This document shows, in pieces, positions 32,715-35,444 of a DNA stretch of 64,000 nt. The DNA is from Chryseobacterium sp. G0186 (GTDB lineage Bacteria > Bacteroidota > Bacteroidia > Flavobacteriales > Weeksellaceae), in the NCBI RefSeq assembly GCF_003815675.1, contig NZ_CP033918.1, positions 372,001 through 436,000 of the forward strand, given 5' to 3'. Made by a program: the position numbers and the translations under genes. Position 1 is the stretch's first letter. Every line of letters begins with the position of its first letter. The notes under the pieces were generated by a model, which ran no database searches, had not been told where the DNA came from, and saw only the letters and a program-made list of their open reading frames with translations.

Positions 32715-35444
32715 ATGGATTTGTTCTATTTAATTCCGGGTTTTGGTGTTTTGGCTTTGCTTTATACATTTTTTCAAAGCAACTGGGTCAGTAAACAAAA
32801 TGCCGGAAATGAAAAAATGAAAATCATCAGTGGTCATATTGCTGATGGTGCAATGGCTTTTTTAAAGGCTGAATATAAAATTTTAACCTATTTTGTAGTC
32901 GTCGTTGCCATTCTCTTGGCAGTGATGGGATCTAGCAATGCCAACTCTCACTGGAGTATAGGAATTGCTTTTGCAGTTGGCGCTGTATTTTCAGCAACGG
33001 CAGGTTTTATTGGGATGAAGATTGCTACAAAGGCAAATGTAAGGACTGCAGAAGCAGCAAGAACTTCCTTATCCAGAGCGCTTAAAGTATCCTTTACAGG
33101 AGGTTCTGTAATGGGAATGGGAGTTGCCGGGCTTGCCGTATTGGGATTAGGAGCCCTTTTCTTAATCATCAAGCAGATCTTTGCACCGCATGCTACATTA
33201 GATTCCCACGAAATGGAAACAACCATTGAAATCCTTACCGGATTTTCTTTGGGGGCAGAATCTATTGCCCTTTTTGCCAGAGTAGGTGGTGGTATCTATA
33301 CAAAAGCAGCAGATGTAGGGGCAGACTTGGTAGGAAAGGTAGAAGCAGGAATTCCTGAAGATGATCCGAGAAACCCTGCTACCATTGCTGATAATGTGGG
33401 GGATAATGTAGGAGATGTTGCAGGGATGGGAGCTGACCTTTTCGGATCCTATGTGGCCACTGTTCTGGCAACAATGGTGCTAGGGAGAGAAACCGTTTCT
33501 GTAGATTCATTCGGGGGTTTTGCGCCAATCCTTTTACCCATGCTGATTGCAGGAACCGGAATTATTTTCTCCATGATAGGAACTTTATTTGTGAAAATTA
33601 ATGACAATGAGGGTTCATCCACATCTAGTGTACAGAATGCATTAAACTTAGGAAACTGGGGAAGCATTGTTATTACCGCTATTGCTTCCTATTTTCTGGT
33701 AACCTATATTCTTCCTGATAAAATGATTCTGAGAGGTCATGAATTCTCCAAAATGGGTGTTTTTGGAGCCATTATGGTAGGTCTTGTAGTAGGAACATTG
33801 ATGAGTATCATTACAGAATATTATACAGCGATGGGAAAGAGGCCGGTCTCTAGTATTGTGAGACAGTCTTCTACAGGGCATGCAACCAATATTATCGGTG
33901 GTCTTTCAGTAGGGATGGAATCTACATTGCTTCCGATTCTTGTATTGGCAGGAGGAATTTATGGATCCTATTTATGTGCCGGATTGTATGGTGTGGCCAT
34001 TGCAGCAGCCGGAATGATGGCTACTACAGCTATGCAGCTGGCTATTGATGCTTTTGGGCCTATCGCCGATAATGCAGGAGGTATTGCTGAAATGAGTGAA
34101 CTTCCCAAGGAGGTTCGTGAGAAAACAGACATTTTAGATGCCGTAGGAAACACTACAGCTGCTACAGGAAAAGGATTTGCCATTGCCTCAGCTGCTTTAA
34201 CGGCCTTGGCATTGTTTGCTGCATTCGTAGGAATAGCAGGAATTGACGGTATTGATATTTACAGAGCAGATGTCTTAGCAGGGTTATTTGTAGGAGGAAT
34301 GATTCCTTTTATTTTTTCATCTCTGGCTATCACTGCCGTTGGACAGGCTGCCATGGCGATGGTAGAAGAAGTGAGAAGACAGTTTCGTGAAATTCCCGGA
34401 ATTTTAGAGGGAAAAGCACAACCTGAATATGAAAAATGTGTTGCCATTTCTACCGATGCATCCATCAGAAAGATGATGTTGCCTGGAGCTATTGCCATTA
34501 TTTCACCTTTATTAATAGGATTTATCTTTGGGCCTGAAGTTCTGGGCGGATTTCTGGCAGGAGCCACGGTATGTGGAGTTTTAATGGGTATGTTCCAGAA
34601 TAACGCCGGAGGAGCCTGGGATAATGCTAAAAAATCATTTGAAAAAGGAGTTGATATTAATGGACAAACTTACTATAAAGGTTCTGAGCCTCATAAGGCA
34701 TCTGTAACAGGAGATACCGTTGGAGATCCATTTAAGGATACTTCCGGACCTTCAATGAATATTCTGATCAAGCTGATGTCAATCGTTTCATTGGTTATTG
34801 CGCCTACTTTGGCTGTTTTACATAAAGATAAAATTGAAGCCAACAGAAAAGCAAAGATTGAAAGCTTAACAGGGATTTCAAGTACTAGCGCAGTTAATTC
34901 AGAGATAAAAACGGGTGTTGCTGTTTCCACTGAAGTAAAAGGGCATCTTAATGAAAACGGAGACTTTGTGTATGAGACAGGAAATGTTCAAAAAGTAAAA
35001 TTGAAAGATGGAAAAACAATAGCAATAGGGGAAGCCAGCCAGCTTTATCAACTTTATAACGCTATTCAGCAAAAAGATCAATCCATTCTGGATCCTAATA
35101 AATGGTTTACCATAGAAAATCTTTATTTTGAAACAGGATCAAGCGATCTTAAGGCTGGTTATGAACTCCAATTAAGCACTATTGCTGAAATTCTAAATGC
35201 TTATCCTGACCTTAAAATAAAACTGGGAGGATATACGGATAACAGTGGTAATGAAGAAAGCAATCTGCAACTTTCTAACCTGAGAGCACAAACCGCAAAG
35301 CTTAAATTGCTGGAATTAGGAGTGTCTGCAGATAGAGTAGAAGCCGAAGGATATGGTTCACAGCATCCTATCTGTGAAGAGAATGATACCGATGAATGTA
35401 AAGCAAAAAACAGAAGAATTGATGTAAGGGTTCTTGCCCAGTAA
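32715..35444 (+). CDS. hppA: Membrane-bound pyrophosphatase fused to a C-terminal OmpA domain
   Basis: Residues 1 to about 715 form an ion-pumping pyrophosphatase with about 16 helices; key motifs are GGGIYTKAADVGADLVGK (191-208), EDDPRNPATIADNVGDNVGD (215-234) and GNTTAATGKG. The Ala in GNTTAA predicts potassium-dependent activity. Glu182 in GAESIALFARVGGG replaces the usual Ser/Gly, while helix 6 has FGSY (243-246) without the usual Glu, a pattern I recall from flavobacterial H+ pumps. After a linker, residues 795-909 are an OmpA-type peptidoglycan-binding domain (Asp842 in GYTDN, Arg857 in NLRAQ). As mPPase C-termini face the periplasm, the tail could hold the pump to the cell wall. Confidence 0.95.
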   Translation: MDLFYLIPGFGVLALLYTFFQSNWVSKQNAGNEKMKIISGHIADGAMAFLKAEYKILTYFVVVVAILLAVMGSSNANSHWSIGIAFAVGAVFSATAGFIGMKIATKANVRTAEAARTSLSRALKVSFTGGSVMGMGVAGLAVLGLGALFLIIKQIFAPHATLDSHEMETTIEILTGFSLGAESIALFARVGGGIYTKAADVGADLVGKVEAGIPEDDPRNPATIADNVGDNVGDVAGMGADLFGSYVATVLATMVLGRETVSVDSFGGFAPILLPMLIAGTGIIFSMIGTLFVKINDNEGSSTSSVQNALNLGNWGSIVITAIASYFLVTYILPDKMILRGHEFSKMGVFGAIMVGLVVGTLMSIITEYYTAMGKRPVSSIVRQSSTGHATNIIGGLSVGMESTLLPILVLAGGIYGSYLCAGLYGVAIAAAGMMATTAMQLAIDAFGPIADNAGGIAEMSELPKEVREKTDILDAVGNTTAATGKGFAIASAALTALALFAAFVGIAGIDGIDIYRADVLAGLFVGGMIPFIFSSLAITAVGQAAMAMVEEVRRQFREIPGILEGKAQPEYEKCVAISTDASIRKMMLPGAIAIISPLLIGFIFGPEVLGGFLAGATVCGVLMGMFQNNAGGAWDNAKKSFEKGVDINGQTYYKGSEPHKASVTGDTVGDPFKDTSGPSMNILIKLMSIVSLVIAPTLAVLHKDKIEANRKAKIESLTGISSTSAVNSEIKTGVAVSTEVKGHLNENGDFVYETGNVQKVKLKDGKTIAIGEASQLYQLYNAIQQKDQSILDPNKWFTIENLYFETGSSDLKAGYELQLSTIAEILNAYPDLKIKLGGYTDNSGNEESNLQLSNLRAQTAKLKLLELGVSADRVEAEGYGSQHPICEENDTDECKAKNRRIDVRVLAQ

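Follow-up and report, generated by a model that had tools for sequence, protein, structure and literature searches.

The 64,000-nucleotide stretch of the Chryseobacterium sp. G0186 genome analysed here (contig NZ_CP033918.1, positions 372,001 to 436,000; hereafter the window) carries, at positions 32715..35444 of its forward strand, a gene in which a membrane pyrophosphatase (mPPase), a linker and an OmpA domain are fused into one protein of 909 amino acids, a layout that is conserved in relatives. The gene is a single open frame of 909 codons that runs from ATG to TAA with no internal stop. The H_PPase domain is complete (residues 12-695, 32748..34799, +): it matches PF03030 over the entire profile (1-645 of 645) with an E-value of 1.5e-271 and 903 bits, above the curated cut-off, and the fusion protein scores 1267 bits against NCBIfam NF001955 (cut-off 1059) and 565 bits against the mung bean proton pyrophosphatase (H+-PPase) chains. 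The catalytic loop motifs GGGIYTKAADVGADLVGKVE, DNVGDNVGD and GDTVGDPFKDTSGPS, whose part in catalysis we take as given, align with those of the solved H+-PPase. The last hydrophobic helix (TM16, residues ~683-705, 34761..34829, +), located by hydropathy and seen as a helix at 679-702 in a low-confidence model, leads into a linker (residues 706-742, 34830..34940, +) that is charged and partly helical at its start, then without predicted structure (predicted local distance difference test, pLDDT, <50), and fast-evolving. A small pre-domain, made up in the model of four strands and one helix, follows (residues 743-797, 34941..35105, +) and is common to free-standing Bacteroidota OmpA proteins. 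The protein ends in an OmpA-like peptidoglycan-binding domain (residues 798-909, 35106..35441, +), identified by Pfam (PF00691, residues 804-899, E 6.1e-18, 65.4 bits against a cut-off of 27.2), by the model of the tail and by structure matches. The continuous frame from pyrophosphatase into OmpA domain claimed in the original prediction is therefore borne out by the open reading frame and by Pfam domains that exceed their cut-offs. Both Pfam domains were also present in all 120 of the best 120 proteins among 8000 scored; among named proteins, the closest are sodium-translocating pyrophosphatases from Chryseobacterium, about equal in length. As the genome encodes a single mPPase, every mPPase of this cell bears the tail.

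Two residues of the OmpA domain, Asp842 (35238..35240, +) and Arg857 (35283..35285, +), are predicted ligands of diaminopimelate, being invariant in alignments A1 and A2 and in 21 of 21 sequences compared (the window gene and 20 relatives). The consulted parts of PMC5974059 and PMC6572160 give D271/R286 as the diaminopimelate-binding pair of A. baumannii OmpA; Asp842 is the equivalent of Asp271, and the spacing between Asp842 and Arg857 is the same 15 residues. The ligand Asp had been numbered correctly in the earlier reading of this DNA, and its Arg partner is Arg857. Among 130 mPPase tails examined, an Asp/Arg pair at spacing 15 was kept in 45 of the 46 tails of at least 165 residues, the remaining one being an FKBP tail; the motif itself had been used to pick most of these rows, and on a recount the FKBP tail was the sole OmpA-length tail outside the set. 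The OmpA motif occurred in none of the 84 tails of at most 163 residues. Pairwise ratios of nonsynonymous to synonymous substitution rates (dN/dS) between the window gene and the 20 relatives, calculated where dS was estimable and to be read as rough values since dS was high and often above 1, were 0.02-0.06 for the core, 0.02-0.16 for the OmpA part, 0.04-0.27 for the pre-domain and 0.2-0.6 for the linker. Judged by these ratios, purifying selection acts on the OmpA part.

For the tail to reach the wall, it must lie on the periplasmic side of the inner membrane. We take GDTVGDPFKDTSGPSMN to be the last catalytic loop and part of the hydrolytic centre, in line with the general topology of mPPases; hydropathy places a single hydrophobic helix (683-701) after it and none past residue 705. 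The hydrolytic centre of mPPases is described as facing the cytoplasm in the consulted part of PMC8657866. Because the GDTVGDPFKDTSGPSMN loop would be cytoplasmic and one helix follows it, the tail should be periplasmic. Modelled alone, the tail reached a mean pLDDT of 94.5, and structure matches to this predicted model show that its fold resembles wall-binding OmpA domains, including those of the inner-membrane machine anchors MotB, MotS and TagL. The periplasm-facing tail that had been proposed earlier is thus supported as an inference, from the loop-and-helix argument and from this fold. A cysteine pair, Cys887 and Cys895 (35373..35399, +), is invariant in the same 21 sequences, is absent in Spirosoma-type tails and may form a disulfide; it suits an oxidising compartment, but free-standing OmpA proteins whose N-termini look lipoprotein-like have it too.

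The pump itself carries Glu182 (33258..33260, +), identified by alignment and by the helix 5/6 motifs as the semi-conserved gate glutamate in helix 5, the arrangement of the F. johnsoniae-type H+-PPase. This position is Ser in the mung bean enzyme, and the helix-6 positions 6.53 and 6.57 are Gly and Ala, with no Glu. K+ dependence is assigned by an Ala at position 12.46; around what is presumably that position, the segment GNTTAATGKGFAI resembles the mung bean enzyme. A helix-5 Glu (5.43) is given for the F. johnsoniae H+-PPase in the parts of PMC10897367 and PMC6882861 consulted, and Glu182 can be placed, by inference, at 5.43. Because Glu182 lies in helix 5 and Glu is absent at the helix-6 positions, as in the F. 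johnsoniae type, the fusion protein is predicted to pump protons and probably belongs to the same class of K+-dependent H+-PPase, contrary to its database name. The current name, sodium-translocating pyrophosphatase, is therefore probably wrong on the ion, and it is silent on the second domain. Helix-5 Ser with helix-6 Glu, the opposite arrangement, was seen in two sampled relatives (L033, L129), showing that the two can be exchanged.

The original prediction had treated the architecture as exceptional and had suggested a search across Bacteroidota; the surveys, which were confined to that phylum, found it to be widespread there. In a survey of 196 genomes of the order, 15 of the 16 genomes sampled from the genus, the one under study included, had the full-length fusion; the exception (G172) gave weak OmpA-kind matches only (best E 2e-22). 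In this genome and in seven genomes of genus g3, all of them close relatives, the matches were weak and of the OmpA type and none was to the mPPase; members of the family thus seem able to do without the pump. A family survey with alignment A1 found the fusion in at least 67 of 148 genomes (60 with one whole-profile match and 7 in which a single open frame holds both parts, including a fragment of 331 codons), and a phylum survey counted in the same way found it in at least 13 of 394 (10 + 3). In a named collection, 24 of the best 80 loci, taken from at least 591 matched stretches, had an in-frame tail with the motif, or 25 of 80 when L166, whose OmpA tail lacks the motif in its strict form, is counted; the fusions include Chryseobacterium, Kaistella, Taibaiella, Spirosoma, Runella, Dyadobacter, Lacihabitans and Emticicia. 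With a Spirosoma tail as query, 117 of the best 120 proteins were mPPase-OmpA proteins and the other three carried DUF937. An artefact or chance fusion was rejected given the full-length frame across the genus, its recurrence in the family and the purifying selection on the OmpA part; the continuity of the fusion, its intact ligand residues, this selection and the recurrence are all apparent at the level of sequence. A contig labelled Phycisphaerales (L153) also bears a Bacteroidota-like fusion, through mis-binning or transfer.

The fusion probably arose several times in Bacteroidota. In a tree of 54 mPPase cores (24 fused, 30 unfused), made by a quick method that lumps transfer and loss together, there were 10 label changes, of which 8 were forced by well-supported branches. 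The OmpA modules were compared in two further trees. The first held 97 modules, comprising 62 of 115 listed proteins (at least 150 residues, P0155 onward) and 35 locus rows (24 fused and 11 separate, L004 omitted); its 31 fused modules did not form one clade against the 52 separate proteins, with 14 unlabelled fragments making up the rest, and joining them cost 107 log-likelihood units (approximately unbiased (AU) test, p-AU 0.00014). In the second, nine long or gappy rows had been removed (P0226, P0228, P0229, P0230, P0232, P0233, P0234, P0235 and L003) and 14 fused rows added; among its 102 rows (44 fused, 46 separate and 12 unlabelled fragments), a single fused clade cost 84 units (p-AU 0.00225). 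A single fusion event followed by losses only was rejected on these two results, with a reservation for fission. In the 97-module tree, the Spirosoma-type tails are placed together with separate proteins, among them P0211 and L122, a DUF937-OmpA protein. Tails of the Chryseobacterium type make up a group of their own (support 98/80), which also takes in four unlabelled fragments, and a third fused set sits among separate proteins with lipoprotein-like N-termini. AU tests on sub-groups (A+C, p 0.0016; A+B, p 0.036) are weaker because the groups were chosen after the tree was seen. As the fused tails are not one clade against the separate proteins, it is likely that several joinings took place. 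The alternative, that fused genes split and so left separate proteins among the fused ones in the trees, is in our view unlikely, given that the separate proteins carry DUF937 parts of their own (6 of the 6 long ones scanned) or lipoprotein-like N-termini. Probable repeated fusion and the predicted proton pump go beyond the original prediction, which was supported in part.

An OmpA-like domain at the C-terminus of mPPases was described in 2024 for Paucibacter and other Pseudomonadota, its role being left to be elucidated in the sections of PMC11210485 consulted, and the architecture is not exceptional in this respect either. The mPPase of Paucibacter sp. KCTC 42545 (Burkholderiales; 810 amino acids) is predicted there to be K+-insensitive, and Table 2 of that paper labels all five proteins as Pseudomonadota or its subgroups. 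Compared by description, the Burkholderiales proteins likewise continue past the last helix, in the same frame, into an OmpA-like domain; the differences are a domain of ~110 residues in a protein of 810 residues there, and a protein of 909 residues with a longer linker, a pre-domain and another phylum here. The Burkholderiales fusion is likely to be independent in origin from the Bacteroidota ones. What is new relative to sections 8 and 9 of PMC11210485, as far as consulted, is the fusion in Bacteroidota, its probable repeated origin there, the conservation of the ligands and the presence of other tails. No further paper on an mPPase-OmpA fusion was found in the literature searched, where subscription papers lay mostly outside the coverage and long hit lists were viewed in part. 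Three papers with terms of both kinds (PMC1586193, PMC4602150 and PMC12502724) were set aside, the fusion not being the subject of the parts consulted.

We consider it likely that the protein is a pyrophosphate (PPi)-driven, probably K+-dependent proton pump of the F. johnsoniae type that is anchored non-covalently to the wall through a periplasmic OmpA domain on a flexible linker, homology being the ground for wall tethering, peptidoglycan binding, topology, ion and dimer alike. In such a pump, a homodimer would present two OmpA domains in the periplasm. Asp842 and Arg857 would mediate their non-covalent binding to the meso-diaminopimelate stem peptide, and the domains would thereby keep the inner-membrane pump against the wall, as MotB anchors the flagellar stator and TagL the type VI system. 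About 24 unstructured residues, a 15-residue helix and the pre-domain would together span, on our estimate, roughly 10 nm, enough for the distance from inner membrane to wall. The catalytic site would remain cytoplasmic and the pumping cycle would probably be unchanged. The fusion shares with the MotB/MotS stator subunits and the TagL/TssL type VI anchors the combination of an inner-membrane protein and a periplasmic OmpA-fold wall anchor; whereas those anchor multi-protein machines, here the anchor sits on the pump polypeptide itself. Unlike a MotB-type stator subunit, with its single N-terminal helix and MotA partner gene, the rest of this protein is a multi-helix mPPase, and none of seven neighbour genes (27.7-37.9 kb) gave a MotA family match; no force-transducing partner was found among these seven. 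The analogy with the stator drawn in the original prediction holds only for the anchor; nothing shows force being exerted or sensed by the pump, nor the link it had suggested between energy state and wall position.

Several observations weigh against an anchored pump of this kind. The segment HKDKIEANRKAK, directly after TM16, is rich in Lys and Arg, and the positive-inside rule would favour the cytoplasm for it; similar stretches are also present in unfused relatives (L102, L103) and so are not specific to the fusion. The side of the membrane on which the mPPase C-terminus lies is stated in none of the literature passages found. In the AlphaFold model of the full-length protein the core is of poor quality (mean pLDDT 59.1), so only the tail was used and the arrangement of tail and pump stays outside the model. 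Close relatives include both fused and unfused pumps, and in one Bacteroidetes metagenome-assembled genome (L168:2950-3492) the OmpA part lies out of frame after the pump, which suggests either tail decay or a contig error. Because unfused close relatives coexist with fused ones and this OmpA part is out of frame, the tail is dispensable in some lineages.

The tail might instead be cargo, with TM16 anchoring an OmpA envelope protein that is perhaps cleaved off in the periplasm and for which the link to the pump is incidental. The linker is indeed fast-evolving, and the module of pre-domain and OmpA domain is the same in free-standing lipoprotein-like proteins and in DUF937-helix-OmpA proteins; these have no enzyme, are anchored by one helix or, judging from the N-terminus, by lipid, and are the nearest non-pump relatives of several tails. 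We nevertheless regard cargo as unlikely, as the probable repeated joining to the same enzyme and the retention in nearly all sampled genomes of the genus argue that the link is useful, and the genome retains other OmpA-domain proteins at three further places. That DUF937-helix-OmpA proteins, which are not enzymes, share this module (L119-L123 and, in the genome studied here, L002) suggests that staples between inner membrane and wall are in use, and the pump could then be merely an abundant inner-membrane protein serving as the anchor of one. Such a purely mechanical role is very improbable in our judgement, because the strong conservation of the mPPase core in the dN/dS comparison indicates that catalysis matters, although the two roles are compatible.

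A different possibility is that the OmpA domain acts mainly as a sensor or dimer clamp, so that wall contact or periplasmic state alters pumping and ties the use of PPi to the state of the envelope. This would be possible given the flexibility of the linker and the pairing of the domain on a homodimer, and the different tails carried at the same place in other lineages (FKBP, or no strong family) raise the prospect that the periplasmic face is a control site. A linker that is unstructured in prediction and fast-evolving is, however, poorly suited to relaying a conformational signal, and gating is attributed to helices 5-6 and 12 in the consulted part of PMC5150537; a sensor or clamp is accordingly improbable.

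The usual picture of a primary ion pump is of a protein free in the membrane. One with its own wall anchor, probably reached several times and with its binding residues kept, would make the benefit of fixing an energy-converting enzyme to the wall testable. We can only speculate that anchoring limits diffusion of the pump, perhaps near wall synthesis, a source of PPi; the removal of PPi from wall synthesis by membrane pyrophosphatases is an idea raised for oomycetes in the consulted part of PMC11210485. A broader reading, which we consider rather improbable, is that wall-tethered PPi pumps evolved repeatedly, perhaps through at least three joinings in Bacteroidota and one in Burkholderiales, and turn PPi from the synthesis of nucleotide sugars and wall precursors into proton-motive force at fixed wall sites. 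If so, the mPPase C-terminus would serve generally as a docking site for functions of the periplasm, OmpA and FKBP among them.

Unrelated tails past TM16 are in fact common among Bacteroidota mPPases and comprise FKBP, Cys-rich and other tails without a convincing family, and the C-terminus looks like a site for adding periplasmic domains. A Pfam scan of 29 tails (25 non-OmpA, 4 OmpA) gave, besides OmpA, one FKBP match and one DUF748 match (E 4e-5), the model of which overlaps OmpA; the remaining matches, at E 0.0015 or worse, were taken as chance. OmpA was the most frequent recognisable tail family in the sample, which had partly been chosen for OmpA. The FKBP case (L027:3345-4031, genome G076) is an mPPase with a C-terminal peptidyl-prolyl isomerase (FKBP_N, E 7e-20; FKBP_C, E 4e-34). 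Two non-OmpA tails from genus g8 of the same order as Chryseobacterium (L028:943-1395 and L032:3538-3954) contain 11 and 8 Cys, match no convincing Pfam family and are possibly metal-binding.

Upstream of the fusion gene lie two conserved neighbours, a gene for a DUF7935 protein (29609..30136, +) and the soluble family I pyrophosphatase gene ppa (30154..30765, +), followed by an amidohydrolase gene on the opposite strand (30857-32578, -). The order DUF7935, ppa, hppA was kept together in 9 of 12 loci compared, the exceptions (L137, L138 and L139) having tails of other types; an amidohydrolase between ppa and hppA occurred in the window and L130 only. This neighbourhood pairs a soluble with a membrane pyrophosphatase and is uninformative about the tail. 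A terminator at the end of the gene had also been proposed, and a terminator-like hairpin of 10 pairs followed by a T run is present (35464..35487, +); the number of such sites in the region (4, against 2.5 +/- 1.8 in shuffles) is not clearly above expectation, and the hairpin alone is weak evidence. Among proteins related to the tail are the DUF937-helix-OmpA proteins at L002:1492-2847 and L119-L123. One further protein, P0221 (361 amino acids), has precomputed cytochrome c and OmpA domains and would be a further case of an energy-related protein that may carry a wall anchor.
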